Made by a program: the position numbers and the translations under genes
From: Microbacterium proteolyticum
GTDB lineage: Bacteria > Actinomycetota > Actinomycetes > Actinomycetales > Microbacteriaceae
Direction: 5' to 3'
DNA: 64,000 nt
NCBI RefSeq assembly: GCF_030818075.1
Contig: NZ_JAUSZZ010000001.1
Location: 2,294,001-2,358,000, forward strand
In this document: one piece after another, positions 1-64,000 of the stretch
Layout: every line of letters starts with the position of its first letter
Position numbering within the stretch: position 1 is the first letter of the stretch
Notes under the pieces: model-generated
The model's input: the letters and a program-made list of their open reading frames with translations, nothing else
Database searches by the model: none
Told to the model about the DNA's origin: nothing

Positions 1-287
1 GCGATCAGGTGTTCGGGCCAGTCCCGGCCGCGTGCGAGAAGCGCATCGACCGCGTGGCGCCGCTCGCCACCGAGACCCGCCGCCAGGGCCGACAACCCCG
101 AGTACGGCCACATCCGCTCGCTCGGGCTCGCCGCCACCACGACCGCGCCGTGCTCTTCGGCGATCGCGCGGGCGAGAGTAGTCTTTCCGATGCCCTCCTC
201 CCCGATGAGGAGGCACCCCGATCCCCCCGAGGCCTCGATGACGTCCTTCGCGATGCGTCTCTCGCGCATACGACCGACAAATGGCAT
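1..287 (-). CDS. LuxR-type regulator, AAA ATPase N-terminus (partial)
   Basis: This is the N-terminal 95 or so codons of a protein that runs off the left edge. It reads MPFVGRMRERR at the start, then a Walker A loop GEEGIGKTT at about residues 34-42, then a TLARAIAEEHGAVVV stretch and a WPYSGLSALAAGL segment. This is the usual opening of large LuxR-family (LAL/MalT-like) ATP-binding regulators, in which a sensor ATPase precedes tetratricopeptide repeats and a C-terminal LuxR helix-turn-helix. Only the ATPase start is visible, so the C-terminal DNA-binding domain is assumed from the family. The start is the ATG at 287. A longer overlapping minus-strand frame is arginine/serine-rich and non-conserved, and was rejected. 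Confidence 0.72.
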   Translation of the reverse strand, partial: MPFVGRMRERRIAKDVIEASGGSGCLLIGEEGIGKTTLARAIAEEHGAVVVAASPSERMWPYSGLSALAAGLGGERRHAVDALLARGRDWPEHLI

Positions 288-418
288 CCCACGTCCCCAC
301 TGCGTCGTCCCGCACCGGAATCGCACGTCCCGGGCCGGATCAGGATGCCCCCCGATCGAAGGCTAAGCTGCGGGTCCGGCGGACGACAAGAGGGGACTTC
401 CCCCGTGAAACCACAACG

Positions 419-462
419 CCGAGAGGGGGACCGGATGCCGTGGCATCCGGTCCCCCTCTCGG
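419..462 (-). terminator. Perfect 21-bp hairpin terminator of the tkt-pgl operon
   Basis: Two perfectly complementary 21-nt arms (419-439 and 442-462) are separated by the dinucleotide GT. The hairpin lies 10 nt past the pgl stop codon on the minus strand and is followed by a T-rich GTTGTGGTTTC in the direction of transcription. This is the form of a Rho-independent terminator. Both arms contain the heptamer GGATGCC/GGCATCC that is abundant in the window. Confidence 0.85.
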
Positions 463-472
463 TCACGATCGC

Positions 473-1264
473 TCAGTACTCGCGGTCGATGAGCTGCGGC
501 GGAACCTGATCTGCGGCGACCTCGTCGACGAAGAACGCCGTACGACGGCGGCCCTTCGCGCCGGCGGCGGGGACGCTCTGGTAGCTCGCCCCGGCGAGGG
601 CGAGACCGAGAGCCGCGGCCTTATCGGCGCCGGCGATGACCATCCACACCCGCTTGGAGCTGTTGATGACCGGGCGCGTCAGCGACACGCGATCACTCGG
701 CGGTTTGGGCGACTCGCGCACCGGCACGGTGGCCCGGTCCGTCACCGAGATCTCGGGGCGGTCCGGGAACAGCGACGCGATGTGTGCGTCGGGCCCGACC
801 CCGAGGAAGCAGATGTCGAACGAGGGCCACGGGCCCGACTCGTTGCGGTCCGACGGAGCGAACTGAGCGAGTTCGTCGGCGTAGGCGATCGCCGCGGCAT
901 CCAGATCCACGCCGTCATCGCTGGAGGCGACGGTGTGGATGTTCTCCGCCGGCACGTCGAGGTGGTCGAGAAATGCCTCGCGCGCCTGCTTCTCGTTGCG
1001 GTCGTCGCTGTCGCGCGGCACGAAGCGCTCGTCACCGAACCAGAAGTGCACGAGCGACCAGTCGATGTCGGAGACGCGCTCATCGCGCGCGGCCGCGCGG
1101 AGAACGGCTCCGCCCATCGTTCCGCCGGTGAGGCAGATGTGCATGCGCTTACCCTCGTCGACGCGCTTGACGATGCGGTTCACGAAGCGGGTCGCCACGT
1201 ACTCCGCCAGCGTGTCGGCGTCGCGCTTGATGATGACGCGCTTGGCCGCACCGCTGTCGCTCAT
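473..1264 (-). CDS. pgl: 6-phosphogluconolactonase
   Basis: Cytosolic hydrolase of 263 aa that opens 6-phosphogluconolactone to 6-phosphogluconate, the second step of the oxidative pentose phosphate pathway. Visible family motifs are LTGGT near residue 45, WFGDERFVP near residue 75, and LGVGPDAHIASLFP near residue 154, which matches the LGxGxDGHxASLFP signature. It is the last gene of the minus-strand tkt-tal-pgi-zwf-opcA-pgl operon. Its ATG overlaps the opcA stop by 4 nt, which suggests translational coupling. The standard position next to zwf and opcA supports the assignment over glucosamine-6-phosphate isomerase, which shares the fold. Confidence 0.95.
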   Translation of the reverse strand: MSDSGAAKRVIIKRDADTLAEYVATRFVNRIVKRVDEGKRMHICLTGGTMGGAVLRAAARDERVSDIDWSLVHFWFGDERFVPRDSDDRNEKQAREAFLDHLDVPAENIHTVASSDDGVDLDAAAIAYADELAQFAPSDRNESGPWPSFDICFLGVGPDAHIASLFPDRPEISVTDRATVPVRESPKPPSDRVSLTRPVINSSKRVWMVIAGADKAAALGLALAGASYQSVPAAGAKGRRRTAFFVDEVAADQVPPQLIDREY

Positions 1265-2208
1265 GATCCGCTCGTCTCATTCGTCGTGTGCAGCAGCTCG
1301 TGGCCCTCCGTGATGACGCGGCCGTAGAGCAGGTCGGGGTCGAGTCGGCGCAGCTCCTCGGCCAGGCATTCGCGCAGCGTCCGTCGCGGGAAGGCGAGGT
1401 CGTGCGTGGGCTGCCCGGGCTGGCTGAGGATCGCGACGCCGGCCTCGGGGCGCTCGAGCAGCGTGTCGCCGCTCGCGCGCGTCAGCCGCACCGACTTGAT
1501 CCCGCTGCTCCACTCGTCCGCCGGAAGGTAGGCGTAGTCGACCGGGGCGTCCAGCTTCATTCCGAGCCACGCCGCGAGCAGGGCGGTCGACGGGGAATCC
1601 GATGCCCCCCGCACTTCGATCGCCGTCACCGGCTCATAGGGCGGCTGGTCGAGCACCGCGGCGAGCTGCTCGCGCCACCGCGTCACGCGGGTCCATGCGA
1701 AGTCGGTGTCGCCGGGGGAGTAGTGCTCGCCGAGCCGTGCGACCCACGCCGCCGGATCGGCTTGCGACGAGGCATCCGTGATGCGACGTTGCGCGATACG
1801 ACCGATGGGCGAGCGCGCAGGCTTCACCGGAGCATCCGCCGGCCACCACGCGACGACCGGGGCGTCGGGCAGCAGCAGGCCCGTGACGAGGCTCTCCGCG
1901 TTGGTGCCCGCGGCGCCGTGGGCGCGCAGCACCACCACCTCGCTGGCGCCGGCGTCTCCGCCCACGCGGATCTGCGCGTCGAGGCGGGGATCCGCGTCCT
2001 GGTCGCCGAACAGCACGACGATGACGCGCATCGGGTGCTCGCGGGAGGCGTCGTTCGCGGCCTCGATGACTTCTTCTTCGGCGCCGTGCTGCGTGATGAT
2101 GATCAGGGTCAGCACACGGCCGAGAGCGACGGCTCCGCCCTCTTCGCGGACGCTGACGAGCTTCTTCGAGATCGCGCTGACGGTGGTGTCGGGAAGGTCG
2201 ATGATCAC
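1261..2208 (-). CDS. opcA: OpcA, glucose-6-phosphate dehydrogenase assembly protein
   Basis: Protein of 315 aa with the OpcA domain, found in actinobacteria and cyanobacteria. It assists assembly or redox activation of glucose-6-phosphate dehydrogenase and has no known catalytic activity. The start (MIIDLPDTTVSAISKKL) is a typical opcA N-terminus. The segment with LLLPDAPVVAWWPADAP near residues 110-126 is the conserved core. It sits between zwf and pgl, overlapping both by 4 nt, so the three proteins are probably made in balanced amounts. Fold-level homology only; the assignment rests on N-terminus, length and synteny. Confidence 0.93.
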   Translation of the reverse strand: MIIDLPDTTVSAISKKLVSVREEGGAVALGRVLTLIIITQHGAEEEVIEAANDASREHPMRVIVVLFGDQDADPRLDAQIRVGGDAGASEVVVLRAHGAAGTNAESLVTGLLLPDAPVVAWWPADAPVKPARSPIGRIAQRRITDASSQADPAAWVARLGEHYSPGDTDFAWTRVTRWREQLAAVLDQPPYEPVTAIEVRGASDSPSTALLAAWLGMKLDAPVDYAYLPADEWSSGIKSVRLTRASGDTLLERPEAGVAILSQPGQPTHDLAFPRRTLRECLAEELRRLDPDLLYGRVITEGHELLHTTNETSGS

Positions 2209-3755
2209 GGGCGTCTCCAGGTGCGGCCGTCACGGGCGAGGAGTTCGTCGGCGGATGCCGGCCCCCACGATCCGGGCGAGTACTGTTCGAGCGGACCGCC
2301 CTGAGCGGCCCAGAATTCTTCGATCGGGTCGAGGATCTTCCAGCTGAGCTCGACCTCTTCGTGACGCGGGAACAACGGCGGGTCACCGAGCAGCACGTCG
2401 AGGATGAGGCGCTCGTAGGCCTCGGGGCTGGCTTCGGTGAAGGCGTGGCCGTAGCCGAAGTCCATGGTCACGTCGCGCACCTGAGTGCCGTCGCCGGGGA
2501 CCTTCGAGCCGAAGCGGATGGTCACGCCCTCGTCGGGCTGCACGCGGATGACCAGCGCATTCTGCCCCAGCTCCTGGGTCTGGCTCCGCGAGAAGAGCTG
2601 CTGCGGGGCGCGCTTGAACACCACGGCGACCTCGGTGACGCGGCGCCCGAGGCGCTTGCCGCTGCGGACGTAGAACGGCACCCCCGACCAGCGGCGGGTG
2701 TTGATCTCGAGCTTGATCGCCGCGTACGTCTCGGTGACCGATTCGGGGTTCATCCCGTCCTCTTCGAGGAAGCCGAGCACGTGCTCGCCGCCCTGCCAGC
2801 CGCCGGCGTACTGCCCGCGGGCCGTGGCCTCGGCGAGGTTCTCCGGCAGACGGACCGCTGCCAGCACCTTCTCCTTCTCGGCGCGGAGGTCTGCGGCGTT
2901 GAAGCTGATGGGCTCCTCCATCGCGGTCAGCGCGAGCAGCTGCAGGAGGTGGTTCTGGATGACGTCGCGCGCCGCGCCGATGCCGTCGTAATAGCCCGCG
3001 CGTCCGCCCACGCCGATGTCCTCGGCCATGGTGATCTGCACGTGATCGACGTAGTTGCGGTTCCAGATCGGCTCGTAGAGCTCGTTGGCGAAGCGCAGCG
3101 CCAGGATGTTCTGCACCGTCTCTTTGCCGAGATAGTGGTCGATGCGGAAGATCGAATCGGCGGGGAAGGCGCTCTCGACCACCTCGTTCAGCTCCCGGGC
3201 GGAGGCGAGGTCGTGACCGAACGGCTTCTCGATGACGACGCGCCGCCAGCCCGTGGTGTCGTCGGCGGTCTCCCCGACGAGCCCGGAGGCCTTGAGCTGC
3301 GTGGTCACGAGCGGGAAGGCCTTGGGCGGGATCGACAGGTAGTACGCGTGATTGCCCATGGTGCCGCGCTCGGTGTCGAGCTTGTCGACCGTCGCGCGCA
3401 GGCGCTGGAACGCCTCGGGGTCGTCGAACTCGCCCTGGACGAAGCGGATGCCCTCGAGGAGCTCCTTCCACGTCTCCTCGCGGAACTCGGTGCGGGCGTA
3501 CTTCTTCACCGAGTCGTAGACGACCTCGGCGAAGTCCTGATCCTCCCAATCGCGGCGCGCGAAACCGACCAGGGCGAAGCCCGGCGGCAGCAGACCGCGG
3601 TTGGCGAGGTCATAGACCGCCGGCATGAGCTTTTTGCGCGACAGGTCGCCGGTGACGCCGAAGATCACGAGGGCGCTGGGCCCCGCGATCCGGCTCAAAC
3701 GGCGATCCTCGGGATCGCGCAGGGGATTGTGACCCGGTGTGATCTCTACGACCAT
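2205..3755 (-). CDS. zwf: Glucose-6-phosphate 1-dehydrogenase
   Basis: NADP-dependent dehydrogenase of 516 aa that oxidises glucose 6-phosphate to 6-phosphogluconolactone, the entry and control point of the oxidative pentose phosphate pathway. The Rossmann motif IFGVTGDLSRKKL lies at residues 31-43, and the G6PDH signature RIDHYLGKE with the substrate-binding Lys and His lies near residue 205. VIEKPFGHD, also conserved, precedes it. Length fits the family. It overlaps opcA by 4 nt and starts 3 nt after the pgi stop in the operon order. Confidence 0.97.
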   Translation of the reverse strand: MVVEITPGHNPLRDPEDRRLSRIAGPSALVIFGVTGDLSRKKLMPAVYDLANRGLLPPGFALVGFARRDWEDQDFAEVVYDSVKKYARTEFREETWKELLEGIRFVQGEFDDPEAFQRLRATVDKLDTERGTMGNHAYYLSIPPKAFPLVTTQLKASGLVGETADDTTGWRRVVIEKPFGHDLASARELNEVVESAFPADSIFRIDHYLGKETVQNILALRFANELYEPIWNRNYVDHVQITMAEDIGVGGRAGYYDGIGAARDVIQNHLLQLLALTAMEEPISFNAADLRAEKEKVLAAVRLPENLAEATARGQYAGGWQGGEHVLGFLEEDGMNPESVTETYAAIKLEINTRRWSGVPFYVRSGKRLGRRVTEVAVVFKRAPQQLFSRSQTQELGQNALVIRVQPDEGVTIRFGSKVPGDGTQVRDVTMDFGYGHAFTEASPEAYERLILDVLLGDPPLFPRHEEVELSWKILDPIEEFWAAQGGPLEQYSPGSWGPASADELLARDGRTWRRP

Positions 3756-3758
3756 GTT

Positions 3759-5387
3759 CTACTGTGCCGCCTCGAAAAGTGAGAGCACCTCGACCTGCGG
3801 GTCGGTCAGCGTCAGCGTGACGACGGGACGGCCATGCGGCGCCCCCGCCAGCACGCTCGCGTCTCCCGCGGCCTGTGCCTGGATGAGTTGTCCGAACGTG
3901 AACGGTCGACCGGGGATCTCGAGGTCGACGTCCGTGCGTTCGAGGATTTGCAGGAAGACACCCGTTGCAGGTCCTCCCTTGTGGTACTGGCCCGTGGAGT
4001 GCAGGAACCGGGGACCCCATCCGAAGGTGGTGGGGCGTCCGGAATCGGCTGCCACGAGTTCGCGAAGGCCGACGAGCTGCGGGAGCTCGAGACGGTTCAC
4101 GTAGGCCTGGATGCTGACGTAGCCGTCGGCGGGCACCCGGGCCATGAGCGTCGCGAGCACGCCCGCGACGGTGCCGTCAGCCGCGAGCGTCGGGTCGGAC
4201 ACGCGCACCTCGACGCCGTCGGCGACGAACGCCGGGGCGGTGGGGGCGGGCTGCGCCTGCAGGAGGCCGCGCGTGGCCTCCTTGGCCGACTCGACGTCGG
4301 GCTGATCGAACGGGTCGATCCCGAGCAGGCGTCCCGCGATCGCGGTCGCGTACTCCCACACGACGAATTGCGCACCGAGCGAACCGCTGACGAGCACTTC
4401 GCCGGTGTGGCGTTCGAAGAGGTGGAACGCCTGGGCGTCGTCGACGAAGCGCACGACCTGCAGGTCGTCGGGCGCGGACTCCAGTTCGGGCGAGACGGGA
4501 AGCAGCACCACGGGCAGGATGCCGGAGCCGTCCTTGCCCGTGGACTCCGCGACGAGCTGCTCGATCCAATCCGGAAGACCGACGATGTGAGTGCCGTCCG
4601 TGACGAGCCCGAGCTTGTCGCGCCGCAGGTCCCCGCCGCCGGCGATCGCGGCGGCCAGGACGAGGGCGGGGTTCTCGGGCGAGTCGATCGCCACCTCGAG
4701 GAGCGTTGCATCCGCCTCGTCGAGCAGTTCGTCGATGTCGACCCCGGCGAGCCCGGTGGGCACGAGGCCGAAGGCGGTGAGCGCGGAGTACCGGCCACCC
4801 ACCTCGGGATCGGCGAGGAAGACGCGATAGCCCTCGGCACGCGCGGATTCTTCCAGAGGCGAGCCCGGGTCGGTCACGACGACGATGCGCTCGGCCGGGT
4901 CGATACCGAGGTCGCGATAGGCGGCCTCGAAGGCGCGCTTGGCGGAGTCGGTCTCGATGGTCGAGCCGGATTTGCTCGAGACGACGAGCACGGTCTGCTC
5001 GAGACCACCCGATTCGGTGTCGCCGTCGATGGCGGCGAGCACCTGTCCGGGAGCCGTGGAGTCGAGGATCACCAACGGCACACCTGCCGTCTGCGCGATC
5101 ACCTCGGGCGCGAGCGAGGACCCGCCCATGCCCGCGAGCACGACGCGGGTCACGCCCTGCGCGACCAACTGGTCGCGCAGGGCGGTGATCTCGGGAACGA
5201 GCGGGCGCGAGACGGAGACCGCCCGCACCCACCCGAGTCGACGGGACGCCTCGTCTTCTGCGGCCGGTCCCCACAGGCTCGCATCGCCGGCGGTGATGCC
5301 CGACGCGATGAGCGAACCGGTCAGGCCCGGCAGTTCGGCCGCGACGACCGAACCGACGTGGCCCGTGACCTTGACCGCGAAGCTCAC
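3759..5387 (-). CDS. pgi: Glucose-6-phosphate isomerase
   Basis: Cytosolic isomerase of 542 aa interconverting glucose 6-phosphate and fructose 6-phosphate. It contains [14 protein letters not shown] (sugar-phosphate-binding SIS fold), SKSGSTIET and a [12 protein letters not shown] segment near the C-terminal third, as in PGI enzymes. The start is the GTG at 5387, overlapping the tal stop as GTGA; an in-frame ATG 21 codons upstream lies inside tal and is unlikely. Having pgi between tal and zwf lets fructose 6-phosphate from the non-oxidative branch be recycled to zwf. Confidence 0.93.
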
Positions 5388-6505
5388 TTGGCGGCCTGGG
5401 CGCTTCCCGCCTCGAGGGCGGTCTTGACCGTGTCCTGGAGCTCGTGCCACGAGGCGATGAACTTCTCGACACCCTCGTCCTCGAGCGTCTGCGTGGCGTC
5501 GGCGACGTCGACGCCGGCCGCGGCGAGACGGTCGAACACCTCGTGCGCCTCGGCGTATCCACCGGTCACGGTGTCACCCGTGATGACGCCGTGGTCGAAG
5601 GTCGCCTCGAGGGTCTTCTCCGGCATCGTGTTGACGGTGCCGGGGGCGACGAGCTCGGTGACGTAGAGCGTGTCGGGGAGGGCGGGGTCCTTCACACCGG
5701 TCGAGGCCCAGAGCGGACGCTGCACCGTGGCACCGGCATCCAGGAGCTCCTTGGCGCGGGGCTCGGCGAACTTCTTCTCGAACAGCTCGTAGGCCAGGCG
5801 CGCGTTGGCGATGCCGGCCTTGCCCTTGAGCTCGGCGGCCTCGTCGGTGCCGAGAGCCGCAAGACGCTTGTCGATCTCGGTGTCGACGCGCGAGACGAAG
5901 AACGATGCGACCGACTGCAGGGTCGAGATGTCGTGACCGGCGGCCTGCGCCTTCTCGACACCGGCCAGGTACGCGTCGATGACCTCTTCGTAGCGCTCGA
6001 GGCTGAAGATGAGCGTGACGTTGACGGAGATGCCCGCGCCGATGACCTCCGTGATCGCCGGCAGGCCCGCCTTGGTCGCGGGGATCTTGATCAGCACGTT
6101 CTTGCGGTCGACACGGGCCGACAGGTCTTTCGCCTGGGCCACGGTGCCCTCGGTGTCGTGCGCGAGGTCGGGGGAGACCTCGATCGACACGCGGCCGTCG
6201 ACGCCGTTCGTGGCCTCGAAGACGGGCAGGAAGATGTCGCACGCGTCGCGGACGTCGTCCGTGGTGATCGAGAAGATCGCCTCGTCGACATCGGCGCCGG
6301 CGGCGGCGAGCTCCTGGACTTGACCCTCGTACGCCTCGCCCTTGGAGAGGGCGCCGGCGAAGATCGTCGGGTTGGTGGTGACACCCGAGACGTTGCGTGC
6401 CTCGATCAGCTCGGCGAGGTTGCCGGACTGGATGCGCTGACGCGACAGGTCGTCGAGCCAGATGCTGACGCCGGCGGCGGCGAGATCTGCGGTGGGAGTG
6501 CTCAT
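5384..6505 (-). CDS. tal: Transaldolase
   Basis: Schiff-base aldolase of 373 aa that transfers a dihydroxyacetone unit from sedoheptulose 7-phosphate to glyceraldehyde 3-phosphate. The segment [13 protein letters not shown] carries the expected Schiff-base lysine, and [13 protein letters not shown] near residue 38 is the conserved N-terminal motif. Its length, close to 370 aa, fits the actinobacterial type. It is the second gene of the pentose phosphate operon, 18 nt after tkt, with an AGGAGG-like site before the ATG at 6505. Confidence 0.96.
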
Positions 6506-6523
6506 GATTCTGGTCCTCCTGGA

Positions 6524-8620
6524 TTACTTCGCCGCGGCGATCGAGTCGCGGGCGGCTTCGACGACGGCCTCGGCCGTGATGCCGAACTTCTGGAAAAGGG
6601 TCTTGTAGTCGGCGGATGCGCCGAAGTGGTCGATGGCGACCGAGCGGCCGGCGTCGCCGACGATGCCGTGCCAGCTGAGGGCCGAGCCGGCCTCGACCGA
6701 CACGCGCGCCTTCACCGACGAGGGGAGGACCGACTCGCGGTACGCCTCGTCCTGCTCGGCGAACCACTCCAGCGAGGGAGCCGACACGACCCGCGCGTGC
6801 ACGCCCTCGGCGGCCAGGGTCTCGCGGGCCTGGACGGCCAGCTGCACCTCGGAACCGGTGGCGATGAGGATGACGTCGGGCTCGCCGTTGGCTGCTTCGG
6901 CCAGCACGTAGGCGCCCTTGACGGCGCCTTCGGCGGAGGCGAACTCGTCACCGGATGCCGCGCCCTCGCCGCGGGCGAAGACGGGGATGTTCTGACGGGT
7001 CAGAGCGATACCGGCGGGGCCGGCGGTGCGGCGGAGCAGCTCGAGCCACACCACGGACGTCTCGTTGGCATCCGCGGGTCGCACGAGGGCGAAGTTGGGG
7101 ATGGCGCGGAGGGTGGCCAGCTGCTCGATCGGCTGGTGGGTGGGGCCGTCCTCGCCGAGGGCGACGGAGTCGTGCGTCCAGACGAAGATCGTCGGGATGT
7201 TCATCAGGGCGGCCAGGCGCACCGGCGGGCGCATGTAGTCGCTGAAGATGAGGAACGTGCCGCCGAACGGACGGGTGGGTCCGTGCAGCACGATGCCGTT
7301 GAGGATCGCCCCCATGGCGTGCTCGCGGATGCCGAAGTGCAGGACGCGGCCGTAGGGGTCGCCCGACCACTCGTGCGTGGACCACGAGCTGGGGATGAAG
7401 GACTTGGCATCCTTGATCGTCGTCAGGTTCGACTCGGCGAGGTCGGCGGAACCGCCCCAGAGCTCGGGGAGCTCGGCGGCGAGGGCGTTGATGACCGTCC
7501 CGCTCGCGGCGCGGGTGGACACGTCCTTCCCGGCCTCGAACGCGGGCAGCGCGTCGGCGATGCCATCGGGGAGCTCGCGCGCCTGCAGGCGGTCCCACAG
7601 CTGCTTGCGCTCGGGGTGAGCGGCCGCCCACGCGTCGAACTTCTCCTGCCAGGCGGCCTTCTCGGCCTCTCCGCGCTGGACGAGCTCGCGCGTGTGCGCG
7701 ATCACGTCGTCGGCGACGGCGAAGTGCTGCTCGGGGTCGAAGCCGAGCACCTCCTTGGTGGCCTTGAGCTCGTCGGCGCCGAGGGCGGAGCCGTGGATCT
7801 TGCCGGAGTTCTGCTTGCCGGGCGAGGGCCAGCCGATGATCGTCTTGAGGATGATGAGCGAGGGCTTGCTCGTCTCGCCCTTCGCGGCCTCGATCGCGGC
7901 GTGCAGCTCGGCGACGTCTTCGACGTACTCGCCGGTCTTCTTCCAGTCGACCGTCTGCACGTGCCAGCCGTAGGACTCGTAGCGCTGCGCGACGTCCTCG
8001 GTGAACGCGACGTTCGTGTCGTCCTCGATCGAGATCTGGTTGGAGTCGTAGATCGCGATGAGGTTGCCGAGCTCCTGGTGGCCGGCGAGCGAGGAGGCCT
8101 CGCTCGTCACGCCCTCCTGGAGGTCGCCGTCGCCGGCGATGACGTAGACGTAGTGGTCGAAGGGGCTTTCGCCGGCGGGGGTCTCGGGATCGAACAGGCC
8201 GCGCTCGTAGCGAGCCGCGTAGGCGAAGCCGACGGACGAGGCCAGCCCCTGACCGAGCGGACCGGTGGTGATCTCGACGCCGTCGGTGTGGCCGTACTCG
8301 GGGTGGCCGGGGGTCAGCGAGCCCCACGTGCGCAGCGCCTCGAGGTCCTTCAGCTCGAGGCCGAAGCCGCCGAGGTAGAGCTGGACGTACTGCGTCAGCG
8401 AGGAGTGACCCGCCGACAGGATGAAGCGGTCGCGTCCGGGCCAGTGCGTGTCGGCCGGGTCGTGGCGCAGGACCCGCTGGTACAGCAGGTAAGCGGCCGG
8501 GGCCAGTGACATCGCGGTACCGGGGTGACCGTTGCCCACCTTCTCGACGGCATCCGCCGCCAGAATGCGAGCGGTGTCCACCGCGCGCCGATCGATTTCA
8601 TCCCATTCGAAGTCCGACAA
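6524..8620 (-). CDS. tkt: Transketolase
   Basis: Thiamine-diphosphate enzyme of 698 aa that moves two-carbon ketol units in the non-oxidative pentose phosphate branch. Visible motifs are [18 protein letters not shown] near residue 33, the ThDP/Mg motif GDGDLQEG near residue 155, and [16 protein letters not shown] in the pyrimidine-binding domain. I place the start at a TTG (8620), preceded at 7 nt by GAGAGAGG. This gives the usual MSDFEW start and family length. An ATG 18 codons upstream gives an atypical basic leader. It is the first gene of the operon, divergent from ctaB. Confidence 0.94.
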
Positions 8621-8805
8621 AACGGTGCCTCTCTCGATCTGCGCCCGTTCACGGCCGACGTCCGCGCTCGCCACCGTAGGAGTGGGAGGGGGGTGGGGGT
8701 GTCGTCGCGGGGCGCGCGTTCACCGCCAGCATAGCGAGAACGCGCGGGCCCGTTGCGGATCGTGACGGGGGTCGACAGACGGCCGGGCCTCTGGTTGGGA
8801 TGCCA

Positions 8806-8811
8806 TAGAAT
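8806..8811 (+). promoter_or_regulatory. Candidate -10 element of ctaB
   Basis: TAGAAT, a good match to the TANNNT extended actinobacterial -10 hexamer, 35 nt upstream of the ctaB ATG. No convincing -35 hexamer is visible, which is common in high-GC actinobacteria. It lies in the divergent tkt/ctaB gap. Confidence 0.3.
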
Positions 8812-8845
8812 CGTGGAGGATCTTTACGCGCTACCCCGGGGGACG

Positions 8846-9772: not shown

Positions 9773-9788
9773 CCCGCCCGTCGACACC

Positions 9789-9812
9789 GCCCGTCCCCGT
9801 CGGGGGCGGGCG
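9789..9812 (+). terminator. Hairpin terminator after ctaB
   Basis: A GC-rich stem (GCCCGTCCCC paired with GGGGGCGGGC, one mismatch, loop GTC) lies 16 nt after the ctaB stop and is followed by GTTCTGCGTT. The form is intrinsic, but the U-tract is weak. Confidence 0.6.
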
Positions 9813-15888: not shown

Positions 15889-15897
15889 GATCGTTAC

Positions 15898-54955: not shown

Positions 54956-54985
54956 CGGCATCCTGTCGGGGTTAGCCTGGTCAAA

Positions 54986-55005
54986 CAGTTAATCGACATT
55001 AACTG
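54986..55005. promoter_or_regulatory. TetR-type operator palindrome
   Basis: CAGTTAATCGACATTAACTG has perfect 8-bp inverted arms around CGAC. It is AT-rich in an otherwise GC-rich region and lies between the TetR gene and accD. The outer TGTCGGG and CCCGACA blocks extend the symmetry. Confidence 0.75.
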
Positions 55006-55065
55006 AAATGTCCCGACACGGGACCGACGGCGCCGTCGACGACGCGGTGCCGAGACGGAGCCGCC

Positions 55066-56754: not shown

Positions 56755-58904
56755 TGGCGGTGGACACTCTCGCGCCCTCGCCTTCGCCGGCCGCACCCCG
56801 GCGCGGCGCCGAGCGCCCTTTCGCGTGCGTGCTCGTCGCCAACCGCGGCGAGATCGCGCGCCGGGTGTTCCGCACGCTGCGCCGGCTCGGCATCCGATCG
56901 GTCGCCGTATTCACCGAGGCGGATGCCGATGCCCCCCACGCTCGCGAGGCCGATCACGCTGTGCGGGTGCCCTCGTACCTCGATGTCGACGCGGTGGTCG
57001 CCGCCGCGATGGCGACGGGGGCGGATGCCGTGCACCCGGGCTACGGCTTCCTCAGCGAGAACGCCGCGTTCGCGCGCGCCTGCGCCGCCGCGGGGGTCGT
57101 GTTCGTGGGTCCGGGCGTCGAGGCGCTCGAGGTCATGGGCGACAAGATCCGCGCGAAGGCGCACGTCGCCGCGCACGGCGTGCCGACCGTGCCGGGGTTC
57201 TCGGCGGCCGGACTGTCTGACGCCGAGATCGCCGCCGAAGCCGCCCGCACCGGGTACCCCCTGCTCGTGAAGCCCTCGGCCGGGGGAGGGGGCAAGGGGA
57301 TGACGATCGCCGCCGGACCCCACGACCTCGCCGACGCGCTCGCCACCGCGCGCCGCGTCGCCCGCGCGGCGTTCGGCGACGACACCCTGCTGCTCGAACG
57401 CCTGCTCGAGCGGCCCCGGCACATCGAGGTGCAGGTCCTGGCCGACGCGCACGGCACGACCCTGTCGCTCGGCGAGCGGGAGTGCACGCTGCAGCGTCGG
57501 CATCAGAAAGTCATCGAAGAGGCGCCGTCGCCCGCCGTCGACGCCGCCCTGCGGGCCCGATTCGGCGAGGCCGCCGTCGCCGCCGCCCGCAGCGTCGGTT
57601 ACCTCGGTGCGGGGACCGTGGAGTTCCTCGTTGCGGGCGACCGGCTCCACGAGCCCTTCTTCATCGAGATGAACACCCGCCTGCAGGTCGAGCACCCCGT
57701 CACCGAGATGGTCACCGGCCTCGACCTGGTCGAGCAGCAGCTGCGCGTCGCCGCGGGCTTCGCGCTCGACCTCCCCCCGGTGCGCCTCGACGGCCACGCC
57801 GTGGAGGCGCGCGTCTACGCCGAAGCCCCGTCGCGCGGATACCTGCCCGCGACCGGAACGGTAGGCCTCTGGCATCCGGGACCCGCCCGCGTCGACAGCG
57901 CTGTCGAGACCGGCACCGTCGTCAGCGCCCATTACGACCCCCTGATCGCCAAGGTCATCGCGCACGGCCCCGACCGGGCGACCGCGCTCGCCCGCCTCGA
58001 CGCCGCCCTCGCCGACACCGTCGTGCTCGGCGTCGACACGAACATCACCGACCTGCGGGCGCTCTTGGCTGAACCCGCCGTCCGGGCCGGCGACCTTCAC
58101 ACCGGGCTGCTCGACCGGCGGGGCACACCCGACGCGCCCGAGCCGACGCCCGACGCGCTCGCCGCGGTGGCGGCGCGGGTGGCGGATGCCGGGACCCCCG
58201 CGTCCGACTCCGCGTGGGACCGCATCGGGGCGTGGCGTGCCGGGGGAGCGCGGGCGCAGCGCACGGTGTTCCTCGAGGATGACGCGGGCCGACTGCACGA
58301 GGCCGCGCCGGCGCCGGGCGAGGCTGTCGTGGTCGGGGGTCCCGCGGAGTTCTGGGTGCACGCCGACGGGGGAGCGCACCGGCTGCGTGTCGTGTCCCGT
58401 CGAGCGGCCGCCGAGCGGCGCCGTGCCGCCGCGGGCCGCGCGCCCGGCGCCGTCGACCCCGACCTCGTCGCGCCCCTTCCCGGAACCGTCGTGGCCGTTC
58501 ACGTCGCCGACGGCGACGCCGTCGAGGAGGGATCCCGGCTCGTCACGATCGAGGCGATGAAGATGGAGCACACCGTGACCGCTCCCCACGCCGGCACGGT
58601 GCGTGTGTGCGTCGCCGCCGGATCGCAGGTCGCGCGCGACCAGGTCGTCGCGACGGTGACGCTGGCAGGCGAGGTCCCGGAGCGTGTCGAAGGGCCCGGT
58701 ACCCGTGGTGTTCCCGAGTCTGCGGCTTCGCCGGTTTCAGCCACCGGCGAGGCAGAGGTCCCTGAGCGTGTCGAAGGGCCCGGTACCCGTGGTGTTCCCG
58801 CGTCGGGGGCTTCGCCGGTTTCAGCCACCGGCGCACGCGCCGAAGCCTTCCGTTCCGCCGGCACCCCGGCATCCGCCCCATCCCCCAAGGAGACCCTCTC
58901 GTGA
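56754..58904 (+). CDS. accA1: Acyl-CoA carboxylase alpha subunit (biotin carboxylase plus BCCP)
   Basis: Biotin-dependent subunit of 716 aa. The biotin carboxylase domain (about residues 20-470) has FACVLVANRGEIARRVFRT, the ATP-grasp KPSAGGGGKGM, and EMNTRLQVEHPVTEMVTGLDLV. The BCCP domain has biotinylated Lys603 in EAMKMEH. After BCCP is a 70-residue C-terminal extension made largely of two copies of a 28-residue unit (84 bp). It pairs with AccD1. The repeat-derived tail is unusual for the family. Confidence 0.93.
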   Translation: MAVDTLAPSPSPAAPRRGAERPFACVLVANRGEIARRVFRTLRRLGIRSVAVFTEADADAPHAREADHAVRVPSYLDVDAVVAAAMATGADAVHPGYGFLSENAAFARACAAAGVVFVGPGVEALEVMGDKIRAKAHVAAHGVPTVPGFSAAGLSDAEIAAEAARTGYPLLVKPSAGGGGKGMTIAAGPHDLADALATARRVARAAFGDDTLLLERLLERPRHIEVQVLADAHGTTLSLGERECTLQRRHQKVIEEAPSPAVDAALRARFGEAAVAAARSVGYLGAGTVEFLVAGDRLHEPFFIEMNTRLQVEHPVTEMVTGLDLVEQQLRVAAGFALDLPPVRLDGHAVEARVYAEAPSRGYLPATGTVGLWHPGPARVDSAVETGTVVSAHYDPLIAKVIAHGPDRATALARLDAALADTVVLGVDTNITDLRALLAEPAVRAGDLHTGLLDRRGTPDAPEPTPDALAAVAARVADAGTPASDSAWDRIGAWRAGGARAQRTVFLEDDAGRLHEAAPAPGEAVVVGGPAEFWVHADGGAHRLRVVSRRAAAERRRAAAGRAPGAVDPDLVAPLPGTVVAVHVADGDAVEEGSRLVTIEAMKMEHTVTAPHAGTVRVCVAAGSQVARDQVVATVTLAGEVPERVEGPGTRGVPESAASPVSATGEAEVPERVEGPGTRGVPASGASPVSATGARAEAFRSAGTPASAPSPKETLS
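58671..58838 (+). repeat. In-frame 84-bp repeat in the accA1 tail
   Basis: Two near-identical 84-bp units (58671-58754 and 58755-58838) encode a VPERVEGPGTRGVP-type segment after the BCCP domain. The unit contains GGTCCCTGAGCGTGTCGAAG, which is like a dispersed intergenic repeat of related actinobacteria, so an intergenic element seems to have become coding. Confidence 0.85.
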
Positions 58905-60076
58905 GCATCGACAGCCAGCAGGCCTTCACCGACGACGAGCGCGAACTGAGCGCCATGGTGCGCGAGTTCGCCGACGACGTGATCGCACCGCGCTCCTACG
59001 AGGCCGACCGCGCGCACGAGCTCCCCCTCGACATCGTCGAGCAGATGGGCGAGATCGGCCTGTTCGGCCTGCCGTTCCCCGAAGAGGTGGGCGGGCAGGG
59101 CGGTGACTACGCCAGCCTCTGCGTGGCGATCGAGGGGGTCGCGCGCGTCGACCAGTCGCTCGCCATCACCCTCGAAGCCGGAGTGGGCCTGGGCGCCATG
59201 CCGCTGTACCGCTACGGCACCGACGCGCAGAAGGAGAAGTACCTGCCCGACCTCGTCGCCGGGCGGGCGCTCGCCGGGTTCGGCCTGACCGAGGCCGAGG
59301 CCGGCAGCGACGCGGGAGCCACGCGCACGACAGCGCGGCGGGATGGCGAGGAGTGGGTGATCGACGGGTCGAAGCAGTTCATCACCAACTCCGGCACGGC
59401 CATCACCCGTTTCGTCACGGTCACCGCGGTCACGGGTCGCACGGGCGAGCGCCCCGAGATCTCCGCCCTCATCGTGCCCAACGGCACGCCCGGGTTCACC
59501 GTCGGTCCCGCGTACGACAAGGTCGGCTGGAACGCCTCCGACACCCACCCCCTCACCCTCGACGGCGTCCGCGTCCCCGCCGACAGCCTGCTCGGCGAAC
59601 GCGGGCAGGGCCTGAAGAACTTCCTCCGCACGCTCGACGAGGGTCGCGTCGCCATCGCCGCCCTCGCCACGGGAGCTGCCGAGGGCTGTCTCGAAGCCGC
59701 CGTCGACTACGCACGCAGCCGCACGGTGTTCGGCGAGCGCCTGTCGACGCGCCAGAGCATCCAGTTCCTGCTCGCCCGCATGCACGCCCGGGTGCACACG
59801 GCGCGACTGGCGTGGGTGCACGCGGCCCGCCTGTGCGATGCCGGCAAGCCCTTCGCGGTGGATGCCGCCGTCGCCAAGATGACGGCGAGCGACGCGGCCA
59901 TGGCCAATGCCCGCGATGCGACGCAGGTGTTCGGCGGCAACGGCTTCATCAACGAGTACGCCGTCGCGCGGCACTACCGCGACTCCAAGATCCTCGAGAT
60001 CGGCGAGGGCACCACCGAGGTGCAGCTCATGGTGATCTCGCGCGCGCTGGGACTCACGGGTACCGTTGCCGCATGA
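58901..60076 (+). CDS. Acyl-CoA dehydrogenase (isovaleryl-CoA dehydrogenase type)
   Basis: FAD enzyme of 391 aa that oxidises isovaleryl-CoA to methylcrotonyl-CoA, by context. The motif GFGLTEAEAGSDAGATRTTA near residue 126 is the flavin/substrate signature, and KQFITNSGTA is also conserved. The C-terminal RDSKILEIGEGTTEVQLMVISR holds the family's Glu-x-T region. The GTG start overlaps the accA stop (GTGA). It equals FadE19 of mycobacteria by position. The electron acceptor (ETF) is not in the window. Confidence 0.93.
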   Translation: MSIDSQQAFTDDERELSAMVREFADDVIAPRSYEADRAHELPLDIVEQMGEIGLFGLPFPEEVGGQGGDYASLCVAIEGVARVDQSLAITLEAGVGLGAMPLYRYGTDAQKEKYLPDLVAGRALAGFGLTEAEAGSDAGATRTTARRDGEEWVIDGSKQFITNSGTAITRFVTVTAVTGRTGERPEISALIVPNGTPGFTVGPAYDKVGWNASDTHPLTLDGVRVPADSLLGERGQGLKNFLRTLDEGRVAIAALATGAAEGCLEAAVDYARSRTVFGERLSTRQSIQFLLARMHARVHTARLAWVHAARLCDAGKPFAVDAAVAKMTASDAAMANARDATQVFGGNGFINEYAVARHYRDSKILEIGEGTTEVQLMVISRALGLTGTVAA

Positions 60077-60540
60077 TCGAGCAGCGCGGCCTGTTTCTGG
60101 AGGAGTTCGTCGTCGGCGAGCGCTACGCGCACCGGCCCGGACGCACCGTCACCGACGCCGACAACGTGCTGTTCACGACCCTCACGATGAACACGCAGGC
60201 CCTGCACCTGGATGCCGCATACTCGGCGACGCAGCCGTTCGGACGTCCGCTCGTCAACTCGATGTGGACCCTCTCCACCCTCGTGGGCCTGAGCGTCGCC
60301 CAGCTCACCCAGAGCACCCTCGTCGCACAGCTCGGTCTGACCGACGTGAGCTTCCCGGCCCCGCTGTTCGTCGGCGACACCCTCACGGCCGAGAGCGAGG
60401 TGATGTCGGTGCGGCCCTCGGCATCCCGTCCGGGGCAGGGGGTCGTCGTGCTCGCGCACACGGGCCGGTCGCAGAACGACGAGGTCGTGGCGACCGCGAC
60501 GCGCACGGTGCTGGTGTGGGCGCGAGAGGCCGCGGCGTGA
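60073..60540 (+). CDS. MaoC-family dehydratase (enoyl-CoA hydratase)
   Basis: A 155-aa hot-dog hydratase. It opens MIEQRGLFLEEFVVGERYAHRPGRTVTDADNVLFTTLTMNTQALHLDAAYSA, in which the Asn/His-containing hydratase 2 motif is visible, and continues RPLVNSMWTLSTLVGLSV. It probably hydrates 3-methylglutaconyl-CoA, as expected for the step before CitE. ATGA overlap with the dehydrogenase gene and GTGA with citE. Confidence 0.92.
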   Translation: MIEQRGLFLEEFVVGERYAHRPGRTVTDADNVLFTTLTMNTQALHLDAAYSATQPFGRPLVNSMWTLSTLVGLSVAQLTQSTLVAQLGLTDVSFPAPLFVGDTLTAESEVMSVRPSASRPGQGVVVLAHTGRSQNDEVVATATRTVLVWAREAAA

Positions 60541-61376
60541 GCGGGGCGCACCCCGATTCGTGCGCCGGAACACGCGCCTTCGCCCTCGGTCCTGCGCTGC
60601 TGTTCGTGCCCGGCAACCGACCCGAACGCCTCGCGAAGGCTCTCGATCGGGCGGATGCCGCCATCCTCGACCTCGAAGACGCCGTCGCCGGGCACGCCAA
60701 GACCGTCGCGCGCGAGGCGATGATCGCCGCCGATCCCGACCCCGACCGTGTCATCGTGCGCGTGAACGGACCGCAGACGCCGAACTTCACGCGCGATCTC
60801 GCAGCACTGCGCCGAACCCGCATCCGTACGGTGATGGTCGCCAAGGCCGAGGACCCGGCATCCCTCGCCCCGCTGGAGGGGTACGACGTGATCGCGCTGT
60901 GCGAAACCGCGCGAGGTGTGGCGAATGCCGAGCACCTCGCGGCGCTGCCGCAGGTCGCCGCCCTCATGTGGGGCGCCGAAGACCTCGTCGCGAGCCTCGG
61001 GGGCACCTCCAGCCGGTTCGCCAGCGGAACATACCGCGATGTCGCCCGCCTCGCGCGGGCCCGGGTGCTGCTGGCTGCCGGGGCTTTCGGCAAGCGCGCG
61101 ATCGACGCGGTGCACGTCGACATCGACGACCTCGACGGCCTGGCGTCAGAGGCTCAGGATGCCGCCGCCTCGGGGTTCGTGGCGAGCGCGTGCATCCACC
61201 CGGGACAGGTAGCGACGATCCGCGCCGCCTACGCCCCGACGGCCGAGCAGCTGCGGTGGGCGCGCGGAGTGCTCGCGCAGGCCGAGGAGGGCGCGTTCCG
61301 CTACGAGGGGCGCATGATCGACGAGCCGATCCTGCGCCACGCGCGGTCGCTGGTGGCCCGGGCTTCGGCATCCTGA
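60537..61376 (+). CDS. citE: HpcH/HpaI aldolase/citrate lyase family protein (CitE-like beta-hydroxyacyl-CoA lyase)
   Basis: A 279-aa CitE-like lyase. PALLFVPGNRPERLAKALDRADAAILDLEDAV at residues 19-50 is the CitE N-terminus, VRVNGPQTPNF and CETARGVAN carry the Mg ligands. The mycobacterial homologue (Rv2498c) at the same operon position was reported as a lyase for HMG-CoA and citramalyl-CoA, so HMG-CoA cleavage is inferred here. Start GTG 60537. It ends the operon. Confidence 0.92.
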   Translation: MSGAHPDSCAGTRAFALGPALLFVPGNRPERLAKALDRADAAILDLEDAVAGHAKTVAREAMIAADPDPDRVIVRVNGPQTPNFTRDLAALRRTRIRTVMVAKAEDPASLAPLEGYDVIALCETARGVANAEHLAALPQVAALMWGAEDLVASLGGTSSRFASGTYRDVARLARARVLLAAGAFGKRAIDAVHVDIDDLDGLASEAQDAAASGFVASACIHPGQVATIRAAYAPTAEQLRWARGVLAQAEEGAFRYEGRMIDEPILRHARSLVARASAS

Positions 61377-61433
61377 GTCCGGGCGACGAGCTCGCCTGGC
61401 GGCATCCCGACCCTGGGTGATGCGCTGGTGCCG

Positions 61434-61521
61434 CGTGCCGAACTCCGGAGGAATCGACGCGGAGAGGGCGGGAACGGCACGACGGCAGCCGCGGAACCGG
61501 ATTTTTCCGGAGTTCGGCACG
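61434..61521. repeat. Inverted repeat in the citE/phosphatase spacer
   Basis: Arms at 61434-61449 and 61506-61521 (CGTGCCGAACTCCGGA and its complement) are perfect over 16 nt and extend to about 22 with two G-T pairs. The internal part is 56 nt with CCGGATTTTTCCGG at one end. It may be a bidirectional terminator for citE and the phosphatase, or a small mobile-type repeat. Confidence 0.65.
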
Positions 61522-61577
61522 TCGGCGAGGAGTTCATCCGCCCTCGATGGGCGACGGGGGTTCGGTGCGCCCGGCGG

Positions 61578-62165
61578 TCAGCTCACGACGCCCGCGTACG
61601 CGAGCATCTCCCAGGCGTCGCCGTCGAGACGGAACGTCGTCACCGAGCAGTTCGGCAGACGCTCGCCCTGGCGGGGGAACTCCCCGTCGGTGGCGAACAT
61701 GATGACCTCGCGGATCAGCGCGCCGTGAGCCACGGCGATCACGTCGACGTCGTCGGGCGTCTCGGCCACGACCTCGGCGATCGCAGCGAGCGCGCGCTCG
61801 CGCACGACCGGCCACGCCTCGGCGCCCGGGACGTCGGCGGCGTGCCACGGTCCGTACGTCTCGTAGAAGGTCGGGGCGTCCATCCCCTCGGCGTCGCCGT
61901 ACGAGCGCTCCTGCAGCCCCGGCATCCGACGGCTGACGGTGGTGCCCAAGGCTGCGGCGATGACGTCGGCGGTCTCGGCGGCGCGAGACAGGTCGCTCGA
62001 GACGACGACGACCTCACGCCCCGCGTACTCCGAAGCCAGGGTCTCTGCGACCTCACGCGCTTGCGCGCGGCCGGTGTCGTTGAGGGGGATGTCGGTCGAG
62101 CCCTGGATGCGACCGCCGGAGTTCCAGTCGGTCTCACCGTGGCGTACGAGGGTGAGGATCGTCAC
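61578..62165 (-). CDS. Histidine phosphatase family protein
   Basis: A 195-aa phosphoglycerate-mutase-like phosphatase. LVRHGETDWNSGGRIQGSTDIPLNDTGRAQA has the phosphohistidine motif RHG at residues 8-10. VVSSDLSRAAETA and VAHGALIREV (second His) complete the active site. These enzymes act on phosphorylated small molecules or sugars; specificity is unknown. The start is GTG 62165. It is convergent with citE. Confidence 0.93.
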   Translation of the reverse strand: MTILTLVRHGETDWNSGGRIQGSTDIPLNDTGRAQAREVAETLASEYAGREVVVVSSDLSRAAETADVIAAALGTTVSRRMPGLQERSYGDAEGMDAPTFYETYGPWHAADVPGAEAWPVVRERALAAIAEVVAETPDDVDVIAVAHGALIREVIMFATDGEFPRQGERLPNCSVTTFRLDGDAWEMLAYAGVVS

Positions 62166-62547
62166 GCGTCGAGCCTAACCCGGGGTGGCATCCGTGGTCC
62201 CGGCGGGGGACGGGGTGCGACCCGCGCGTTCGGGAAAGTCCTGGCGTGAGAGGCGTTGGCAGCGGAGGAGAGAGGAGGAGGGGAGGATGCCGGGCGGCGG
62301 TTCATCCTCCGCTCGCCCCTCGTCCTCCGCTGGTCACTCCGGAGCGCGCGGGCCCGCGTCAGAGGTGCCCGGGAGCCGCCCGGCCGGTGCTCGCAGGACG
62401 TCGGTCGTGCCACCGCGCGCCCGAAAACCGCGGCAGAGCAGGCCCGGCGGCGGCTGGTGTTCGCCGCGCGTCGGTCGTGCCGTGTCAGAGCTGCCCCGGC
62501 AGCGGTTGGTGCTCGCAGTGCGCCGGACACGCCACCGAGGTGCCGTG
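62166..62547. repeat. Gene-free spacer with degraded copies of the sir2 3' end
   Basis: Within this 382-nt gap the sir2 stop and its neighbouring codons (TCAGAGC..CCCGG) recur near 62359, 62433 and 62485; the true stop is at 62548. The segments include the CGTCGGTCGTGCC that lies within sir2 at 62589-62601. The spacings are 74, 52 and 63 bp. The rest, 62166-62358, is GC-rich with a purine stretch and no gene. Confidence 0.75.
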
Positions 62548-63396
62548 TCAGAGCAGTCCGGGGAGCCGCTGCGCCAGCGCCCGCAGCGCGTCGGTCGTGC
62601 CGCCGTCGATCTTGACCGTCGCGCGCTGATCGGCCCGTGTCTCGCCGCGGTTGATGATGACGACCGGCAGGCGCTTGCGTCGCGCGCGCTCGACCAGCCG
62701 GATGCCCGAGTTCACGACGAGCGACGACCCCGCCACGACGAGCGCGCCACTGGTGTGGACGAGCTGTTCCGCCTCGCGGAACTTCTCGACCGGGATGTAC
62801 TCGCCGAAGAACACGACGTCGGGCTTGAGGGTCCCGCCGCACACCGAGCACGACGGAACGACGAAGCCGTCAGCCGAGGCCGGGGTCACATCGCCGTCCG
62901 GGCCCAGCTCCACGTTCTCGGGCAGCGTGATCCAGGGGTTATCGGCCTCGACGCGCTCGGCGAGGTCGCGGCGGTCGAAGACCTGGCCGCACTGCAGGCA
63001 CCCCACCCGGCGCATCGTTCCGTGCAGCTCGACGACGCGCCCGCTGCCGGCGCGCACGTGCAGACCGTCGACGTTCTGCGTGACGACGCCGTTGGCGACC
63101 CCCGCGGCCTCGAGGTCGGCGAGGGCACGGTGACCGTCGTTCGGCTCGGCCGCAGCAAAGACCTTCCACCCGAGATGACTGCCCACCCAGTAGCGGCGGC
63201 GCGCCTCGGCGCTGGCGAGGAACTGCTGCGCGGTCATCGGCGTGCGCGTGGGAGCACCCTTGCCGCGGTAGTCGGGGATGCCCGAATCGGTCGAAACGCC
63301 TGCCCCGGTGAGCACGGCGATGCGACGGCCCGCGAGCACCTCGACAGCCCGATCGATGGATGCCGAGAACCCGGCATCCTTCGTCGTGTCGATCAT
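62548..63396 (-). CDS. Sir2-family NAD-dependent protein deacylase
   Basis: A 282-aa sirtuin. LTGAGVSTDSGIPDYRG near residue 29, TQNVDGLHVRAGSG and ELHGTMRRVGCLQC carry the NAD site, catalytic His and first zinc Cys pair. CSVCGGTLKPDVVFFGE supplies the second Cys pair. This is the longer class that can act as deacylase or lipoamidase. The ATG at 63396 follows GGAGG; a longer frame to 63585 is spurious. Its 3' end has degraded copies downstream. It is divergent from trmH. Confidence 0.94.
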   Translation of the reverse strand: MIDTTKDAGFSASIDRAVEVLAGRRIAVLTGAGVSTDSGIPDYRGKGAPTRTPMTAQQFLASAEARRRYWVGSHLGWKVFAAAEPNDGHRALADLEAAGVANGVVTQNVDGLHVRAGSGRVVELHGTMRRVGCLQCGQVFDRRDLAERVEADNPWITLPENVELGPDGDVTPASADGFVVPSCSVCGGTLKPDVVFFGEYIPVEKFREAEQLVHTSGALVVAGSSLVVNSGIRLVERARRKRLPVVIINRGETRADQRATVKIDGGTTDALRALAQRLPGLL

Positions 63397-63464
63397 GCAC
63401 ACCTCCGTCTCGGAAGAGTCTAGGGCGGCGCGCCGACACCCGGCTCGCGCGGCCCGTCCGGTGT

Positions 63465-63522
63465 CGAGTGTCCAGGACACGCCGTGGCCGTGCTCGTCTG
63501 TGCGGCGTGTCGTGGACACTCG
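63465..63522. promoter_or_regulatory. Nested inverted repeat between sir2 and the trmH-like gene
   Basis: 20-nt arms (63465-63484 and 63503-63522) match at 19 of 20 positions across an 18-nt loop. Each arm is itself near-palindromic: GTGTCCAGGACAC on the left, GTGTCGTGGACAC on the right. It lies in the divergent gap and could be an operator pair or a cruciform. Confidence 0.55.
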
Positions 63523-63574
63523 CCGGGATCGTCGGGGCAGGGCGCGGGGTTCCGGCGGCTGGCACGATGGGACG

Positions 63575-64000
63575 ATGCCCGTCATCCCCCTCGACTCCGC
63601 TGACGACCCGCGCCTCGCCGACTACCGCGACCTGACCGACGTGTCGCTGCGACGGGTGAGCGAGCCCGCGGGCGGGCTCTACATCGCTGAGTCGTCGAAG
63701 GTGCTCGACCGGGCGCTCCGTGCCGGGCACCGCCCTCGGTCGGTGCTCGTGCAGGAGAAGTTCCTCGCCGACGCGCTCGCGCTCGTGGGTGAGGATGCGG
63801 AGGTGTACGTGGTCCCGGCCGAGATCGCCGAGCAGGTCACCGGGTACACCGTGCACCGGGGGCTGCTGGCATCCATGCATCGCCCCGCCTTGGCATCCGT
63901 CGCCGAGGTCGTGAAAGACGCCCGGCTCGTCGTGGTGCTCGAAGACATCGTCGACCACACCAACATCGGCGCCGCCTTCCGCTCGGCAGCGGCCCTCGGA
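63575..64000 (+). CDS. TrmH/SpoU-family RNA 2'-O-methyltransferase (partial)
   Basis: The first 142 codons of a SpoU-type methyltransferase, cut by the window's right edge. The N-terminus PVIPLDSADDPRLADYRDLTDVSLRRV is followed by GLYIAESSKVLDRALRAG, the substrate-binding domain. Near the end is LEDIVDHTNIGAAFRSAAALG, the SPOUT motif with the Asn-x-Gly core. The modified rRNA or tRNA position is not determined. ATG at 63575. Confidence 0.88.
   Translation, partial: MPVIPLDSADDPRLADYRDLTDVSLRRVSEPAGGLYIAESSKVLDRALRAGHRPRSVLVQEKFLADALALVGEDAEVYVVPAEIAEQVTGYTVHRGLLASMHRPALASVAEVVKDARLVVVLEDIVDHTNIGAAFRSAAALG

Follow-up and report, generated by a model that had tools for sequence, protein, structure and literature searches.

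GGATGCC, a dialect-forming word iterated over Microbacterium genomes that may work like a DNA uptake sequence

Three classes of iterated short words are named in the available part of the literature on HIP1 (highly iterated palindrome 1), namely Chi, uptake sequences and HIP1 itself (PMC4390886). Uptake sequences have been described for the Neisseriaceae (DNA uptake sequences, DUS) and for the Pasteurellaceae (uptake signal sequences, USS). As far as the accessible portions of these sources go, they are recorded as over-represented words whose dialects share a core, which form inverted pairs in terminators and which have no general orientation bias (PMC3630211, PMC12616744, PMC2346458). A candidate receptor for the USS of Pasteurellaceae has been studied through the coevolution of orthogroups and dialects (PMC12616744). 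HIP1 (GCGATCGC) from cyanobacteria is given in the accessible text as a palindrome with methylase sites, which is the same in most described strains (PMC4390886). The word considered here, GGATGCC (GGCATCC on the opposite strand), was noticed in a stretch of 64,000 nucleotides of Microbacterium proteolyticum (contig NZ_JAUSZZ010000001.1, positions 2,294,001 to 2,358,000), hereafter the window. By analogy, chances appear about evenly balanced that it is a genome-wide tag of this Microbacterium lineage, GGATGCC or more fully GGATGCCR, which works like a DUS or a USS.

Like DUS and USS, the word recurs thousands of times in coding and intergenic DNA alike, on either strand and without orientation bias. 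In the same way, it forms family dialects with a common core and provides inverted pairs to terminator-like hairpins. However, it is shorter (7-8 bp, against 9-12 for DUS and USS), its host is a high-GC Gram-positive, its use in hairpins is confined to the GGATGCC dialect at the spacing tested and it has no intragenic position bias. With HIP1, it shares iteration over the genome and, here, an orphan methyltransferase that is nearly universal in the clade, whereas it is asymmetric, dialect-forming and strong also where the methyltransferase match is weak. Chi and the FtsK orienting polar sequences (KOPS) are, like this word, short, G-rich, over-represented and lineage-specific. Both are polar with respect to replication, and the Chi of E. 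coli has a density of about 0.2 per kb; GGATGCC, in contrast, has no replication polarity and a density of 1.74 per kb. It is not classed here as a DUS, since what defines one is preferential uptake. No earlier report of this word was found in the literature searched, whose coverage leaves out most subscription papers.

Exact counting gives 64 GGATGCC and 64 GGCATCC in the window. A preliminary description of this DNA, which had counted about 61 and 62 by hand, was thus right about the excess and even understated it. For these 128 copies, a total of 15.0, 16.9 and 24.5 is predicted with Markov order 1, 2 and 3; the preliminary description had estimated about 15 from composition. At each of these three orders GGATGCC ranks first among all 7-mers of the window; at order 5 it ranks 7th, with 98 expected. 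The density outside the window had been set beforehand as a check, and the excess extends to the whole single-contig genome of 3.77 Mb, which holds 3231 + 3338 copies (6569 in total, a density of 1.74 per kb, compared with 2.0 per kb in the window), while the reversed control word has 188 + 187 (375). A local peculiarity of the window is ruled out by these genome-wide counts and by the family-wide counts given below. In a 464-kb sample of this genome, the base that follows the word is G in 555 of 794 copies and A in 186; it is therefore the octamer GGATGCCR that represents the fuller word. After HGATGCC (H being A, C or T), the same position is occupied by G in 267, C in 126, A in 27 and T in 21 of 441 cases. 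Two other words are clearly under-represented in this genome, as counted over the window and the loci L001-L020, namely CCGATCG/CGATCGG (292 for 566 expected) and CGAGCCT/AGGCTCG (45 for 188 expected).

Composition and codon use are ruled out as a cause by the Markov models and by codon-preserving shuffles, which had been proposed as a possible refutation. The 57 genes called in the window carry 104 copies, for a mean of 26 and a maximum of 35 in 200 shuffles, and those of the 464-kb sample carry 617, for a mean of 163 (200 shuffles). Gene calls are our own choices from codon usage and leave about one fifth of this sample unassigned. Called genes hold 1.69 copies per kb and the remainder 1.74, and the two orientations relative to coding sense are balanced (296 versus 321), in agreement with the preliminary description, which had seen no preference for gene direction and copies in both coding and intergenic DNA. 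GAT and GCA are rare, as it had also stated (17% of Asp codons and 5.6% of Ala codons), and the word alone accounts for 19% of the GAT and 16% of the GCA codons of the sample. With the origin placed at dnaA (742 kb) and the terminus at the opposite point, the leading strand carries 398 copies and the lagging strand 396 (p 0.97). This rules out a polar signal such as Chi or KOPS, and an ordinary Chi, one of the causes previously proposed, is therefore disfavoured. The density varies with G+C content (GC): it reaches 1.86 per kb in 38 bins of 10 kb with a GC of at least 0.69 and 0.53 per kb in six low-GC bins (rho 0.76 over 48 bins). A 10-kb locus of this genome (L207, GC 0.62) holds a single copy of the word and a gene of a Mod-type DNA methyltransferase (L207:3577-5349, minus strand); it is likely an acquired restriction-modification island.

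The word is widespread in the Microbacteriaceae. Among 150 genomes of the family (designated below by G numbers), GGATGCC outnumbers its control more than fivefold in 85 and more than tenfold in 33; in 16 the ratio is below 2.5. In a sample of 246 genomes of the phylum that includes two members of the family, all the others stay under about 0.5 copy per kb (genome sizes being rounded). Genomes poor in GGATGCC often bear a sister word: GGATGCG in G100, G028 and G021, GGATCCG in G034, GCAGGATCC in G047, GGAGGCG in G110 (527 for 158 expected in 280 kb) and CCGGATC in G096. In G148, GGATGCT is found alongside GGATGCC, and G010 has the less similar CACCGATR, which does not share the core. Some of these words rest on samples of 40-80 kb; most of the dialects share a GGAT or GGA core. 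According to whole-genome counts, GGATGCG is at least 1.5 times as frequent as GGATGCC in 19 of the 150 genomes, and the reverse is true in 52. A lepA+leuS tree built from 17 genomes, whose backbone is partly unresolved, places the GGATGCG genomes in three separate groups.

The synonymous choice of the Ala codon follows these dialects. After a GAT codon preceded by G (G_GAT), this genome encodes Ala by GCC 260 times out of 290, and a set of seven other GGATGCC genomes does so 145 times out of 180; a set of eleven GGATGCG genomes favours GCG (144 of 192), and G148 favours GCT (21 of 32). After H_GAT, in contrast, the codon does not track the dialect: GCC represents 58/136, 58/117, 49/110 and 15/33 in these four sets, respectively, and GCG 66/136, 48/117, 49/110 and 8/33. 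As the dialect labels were taken from the genomes that were later compared, only the contrast with H_GAT is informative. G020 deviates from its label (GCA 5 and GCG 4 of 11). Its comEC region (L256) contains 13 GGATGCA in 20 kb beside 20 GGATGCG, which is perhaps a double dialect.

A related word is found beyond the family. Counts in 198 genomes of the order reveal more than 1000 copies of GTATGCCG, which differs by one letter from GGATGCCG, in 7 of the 13 genomes of a sister family (f4), whereas the highest count outside f4 is 167, below its control. In samples of two f4 genomes (L199-L206), this word has 48 (G234) and 43 (G288) copies per 80 kb, whereas its 7-mer part would be expected 3.5 and 4.7 times. 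Two other members of the order (G157 and G211) have no such word within 80 kb each. G288 also carries an array with a period of 61 bp (L206:11775 to at least 14463) that resembles clustered regularly interspaced short palindromic repeats (CRISPR) and whose repeat contains GGAAGCACTCCCGCGGACG. AAGCACT, a candidate motif of G288 with 58 copies in the sample, was discarded, as it is explained by this array.

The preliminary description had placed the word in the stems of the two longest perfect terminators of the window, and both arms of the two hairpins, at 419-462 and 36097-36149, do contain it (Table 1). Their predicted folding energies are -48.5 kcal/mol (z -8.4) and -57.6 kcal/mol (z -11.6), respectively, and the former fits the terminator consensus on the minus strand (the terminator scan covered positions 1-2000). 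Over the 464 kb, the word occupies both arms of 10 of the 29 perfect hairpins (stem of at least 11, loop of 3-9) found outside called genes, of 8 of the 20 located near a gene 3' end, and of none of the four found inside genes. Furthermore, the genome contains 29 copies of the palindrome GGATGCCNNGGCATCC, whereas the density of the word would predict about 3; the control pattern is absent. At least one copy is present in 60 of the 150 genomes of the family, with a maximum of 107 in G142; here too the control pattern has none.

Among close relatives, the word is also conserved at the synonymous level. The window encodes a transketolase that shares 97% identity with named Microbacterium (M. enclense, M. 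testaceum and others). Orthologous positions were compared with 27 close relatives (Microbacterium, 85-91% nucleotide identity) and 53 more distant ones; the cells counted come from related genomes and are hence not independent. In the close set, 473 of 654 cells preserve the word intact, versus 24,938 of 52,976 for other arrangements of the same letters. When the amino acid is conserved, the word retains GCA in 86 of its 95 cells and TCC in 88 of 92, versus 100 of 602 and 922 of 1575, respectively, outside it. In the same way, GAT is retained inside the word in 166 of 221 cells, for 77 of 239 in G_GAT followed by another codon, 16 of 38 in H_GAT_GCC and 250 of 781 elsewhere. In the far set, the contrast is weaker, with 45/94 inside and 130/1050 outside for GCA, and 148/380 inside and 278/1037 in other contexts for GAT.

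An uptake-like tag, which was missing from the causes listed in the preliminary description, best fits the dialects, the hairpins and the synonymous conservation. Uptake tagging is considered the likeliest mechanism because DUS and USS are likewise recorded as having dialects built on one core, inverted pairs in terminators and no general orientation bias. The excess over codon shuffles and the balance between strands and between coding directions also count in its favour, and the scarcity in low-GC DNA and the presence of comEA and comEC are compatible with it. According to this model, a putative surface DNA receptor of the competence apparatus would prefer the word, so that DNA from the same or close species would enter more readily and pass through ComEA and ComEC. 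Biased uptake joined to recombination would then spread and renew the word on either strand, within genes as well as outside them, with some of the intergenic pairs turning into terminator hairpins. A shift of the receptor preference in a lineage would lead to the rewriting of the copies into a new dialect. The competence of this organism, like the receptor and the uptake bias, is presumed here. A gene that we take to be holA-like is adjacent to comEA and comEC in this genome (L245). Transcripts of comEC/rec2 rise in 50% polyethylene glycol in Microbacterium sp. 3J1, according to the part of the report available, which describes no transformation (PMC5177630). The accessible part of another report indicates that transformation of Micrococcus luteus uses a Flp pilus, of which TadE is a part (PMC4322843). 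In the family, the word is less enriched in 20 listed genomes negative for TadE (median ratio 3.2 versus 7.7, p 0.004, uncorrected for kinship), with G093, G103, G125 and G017 as exceptions; this comparison uses the better of two words and counts one of the 21 TadE-negative genomes among the positives. The high ratio of G017 is partly due to an unusually low control count.

Several observations weigh against uptake tagging. The ComEC domain is present in 148 of the 150 genomes of the family, including those where the word is absent. TadE is found in 129, its match is weak in this genome (2.6e-4), and the search of the 150 genomes did not find it in the GGATGCG-rich G093, G103 and G125, nor in G110. 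No clear word was found in samples of 40-80 kb from G024, G013, G059, G030, G014 and G017. In normal-GC stretches the spacing of copies is random (coefficient of variation 1.00) and no preference for gene ends was found in the sampled genes, unlike some USS. The equivalent of the palindrome with a 2-bp spacing is present in only 0-3 copies per genome in the GGATGCG dialect. Of the 20 palindromes read in G142, 12 fall in called genes and 12 have a stem no longer than 7; the dyad thus does not act solely as a terminator. Among the far relatives, GAT is no better retained in G_GAT_GCC (148/380) than in H_GAT_GCC (22/54). The Microbacterium phage Efeko (17.5 kb, L189) carries 19 GGATGCC for 4 expected with both Markov order 1 and order 2, i.e., 4-5 times the expectation; this clear enrichment counts against a simple 'self only' tag. 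Clayda5 has about twice the expectation (21 for 9 and 11). Four of the five Microbacterium phages lie at 0.6-2.4 times the expectation, the others being Min1 (16 for 11 and 13), SanaSana (6 for 9 and 10) and Lynlen (15 for 9 and 10); the Curtobacterium phage Shayna has 12 for 8 and 9.

Other processes could maintain such a word, among them DNA modification and chromosome organisation, which the preliminary description had listed as possible causes. By analogy with HIP1, also an iterated word, which the available part of its literature links to orphan methyltransferases (PMC4390886), a core orphan N6/N4 methyltransferase of about 290 residues could methylate part of GGATGCC, and methylation-guided repair or a methylation-dependent function could keep and multiply the word. 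A PF01555 methyltransferase of this size, which resembles the YhdJ type (PRK11524), CcrM and RsrI, occurs in nearly every genome of the family (147 of 150; loci L208-L226). Among the matches listed, G051 and G121, which lack an excess of GGATGCC, have weak ones, and G030, which lacks a clear word, has none. However, the matches listed are also weak in the GGATGCG-rich G100, G049 and G119 (12.5, 9.3 and 6.5 times the control), and the enzyme is found in G024, G010, G013 and G059, which lack a word of the GGATGCC type. These statements use E-values as a proxy for the core enzyme, and this genome has a second PF01555 match. The enzyme, whose central blocks are well conserved, is 69-86% identical in 11 compared pairs, within as well as between dialects, and therefore does not track the dialect. 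The word is, moreover, not palindromic. Upkeep by the methyltransferase is rated as unlikely, although the near-universal presence of the enzyme keeps DNA modification among the candidate causes. A link with C5 methylation is disfavoured: C5 methylases occur in 72 of the 150 genomes with no relation to motif strength (p 0.31), and this genome has no match to their family PF00145.

The word could otherwise be the site bound by an abundant protein, active in chromosome organisation or repair, with a specificity that drifts from lineage to lineage. A high and non-polar density on the chromosome, dialects and conservation would all suit such a site, and the extended dyad GGATGCCRYGGCATCC would suit a dimer. 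Nevertheless, no candidate protein was found, the spacing is random, the preference for terminator hairpins is not expected from such a site, and Chi and KOPS are excluded by the absence of polarity; this explanation seems quite unlikely. A mutation or repair bias, with the word as a functionless product of context-dependent mutation such as the deamination of GGACGCC put forward in the preliminary description, appears very improbable. Among the single-change cells of relatives, GGACGCC is indeed the most frequent alternative (17 of 89 in the close set, 52 of 182 in the far set). However, it is not depleted (220 for 220.6 expected), single-change losses touch all seven positions, rare codons are preserved inside the word and a set of related dialects is not expected from one route. 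Deamination of GGACGCC, with no PF00145 match in this genome, is thus unsupported.

Table 1. Copies of GGATGCC in the window and the two perfect hairpins that contain it (positions in the window)
Feature	Position	Strand	Remarks
GGATGCC, 64 scattered copies	343..63364	+	exact count; first bases: 343, 433, 2253, 3446, 4517, 6953, 7327, 8798, 10177, 11587, 13245, 14436, 16066, 16151, 17058, 17364, 17853, 17912, 20644, 24843, 25385, 28109, 28450, 28892, 32435, 35842, 36099, 36951, 38557, 38719, 41593, 41721, 41778, 43599, 44193, 45234, 45614, 46001, 46472, 47207, 47756, 47790, 48397, 49293, 51495, 51826, 52440, 53418, 54141, 54542, 55269, 56295, 56556, 56921, 57023, 58184, 59860, 60210, 60653, 61157, 62285, 62700, 63276, 63358
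GGATGCC on - (GGCATCC on +), 64 copies	283..63898	-	exact count; first bases on +: 283, 442, 896, 1771, 5735, 7067, 7406, 8549, 12475, 13623, 14680, 16384, 17619, 18333, 22091, 22328, 22965, 23493, 24060, 25050, 25419, 26189, 26591, 27570, 30103, 32330, 32510, 34971, 36141, 36157, 37780, 37796, 38028, 38420, 39589, 41027, 42792, 44860, 45879, 46128, 46538, 48173, 50627, 50659, 51652, 51916, 53073, 54860, 54957, 55675, 56245, 56496, 56889, 57871, 58868, 60420, 60857, 61367, 61401, 61921, 62187, 63373, 63868, 63892
Perfect hairpin, stem 20, loop 4, word as inverted pair	419..462	-	terminator-like; directly 3' of a gene called on the - strand (473-1264)
Perfect hairpin, stem 24, loop 5, word as inverted pair	36097..36149		between the 3' ends of convergent genes (called ..36084 + and 36166.. 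-)

Uptake tagging thus being the preferred reading, a broader proposal can be made tentatively, its chances falling somewhat short of even. The Microbacteriaceae, joined by one sister family in whole or in part, could have evolved a dialect-forming code for the uptake of kin DNA, read by a putative receptor, which would separate lineages. It would have arisen independently of those of the Neisseriaceae and Pasteurellaceae and would be the first in Gram-positives. If confirmed, GGATGCC would represent a Gram-positive case of uptake tagging, which has so far been described, in the accessible parts of the sources, in two Gram-negative families. If it is not involved in uptake, another process maintains thousands of lineage-specific sites, which equally needs an explanation. 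If the proposal is true, these dialects would constitute a natural experiment in the origin and switching of uptake codes and in the isolation of lineages by them. Codon choices, terminators and some of the genome signature would then be accounted for in a large environmental group.

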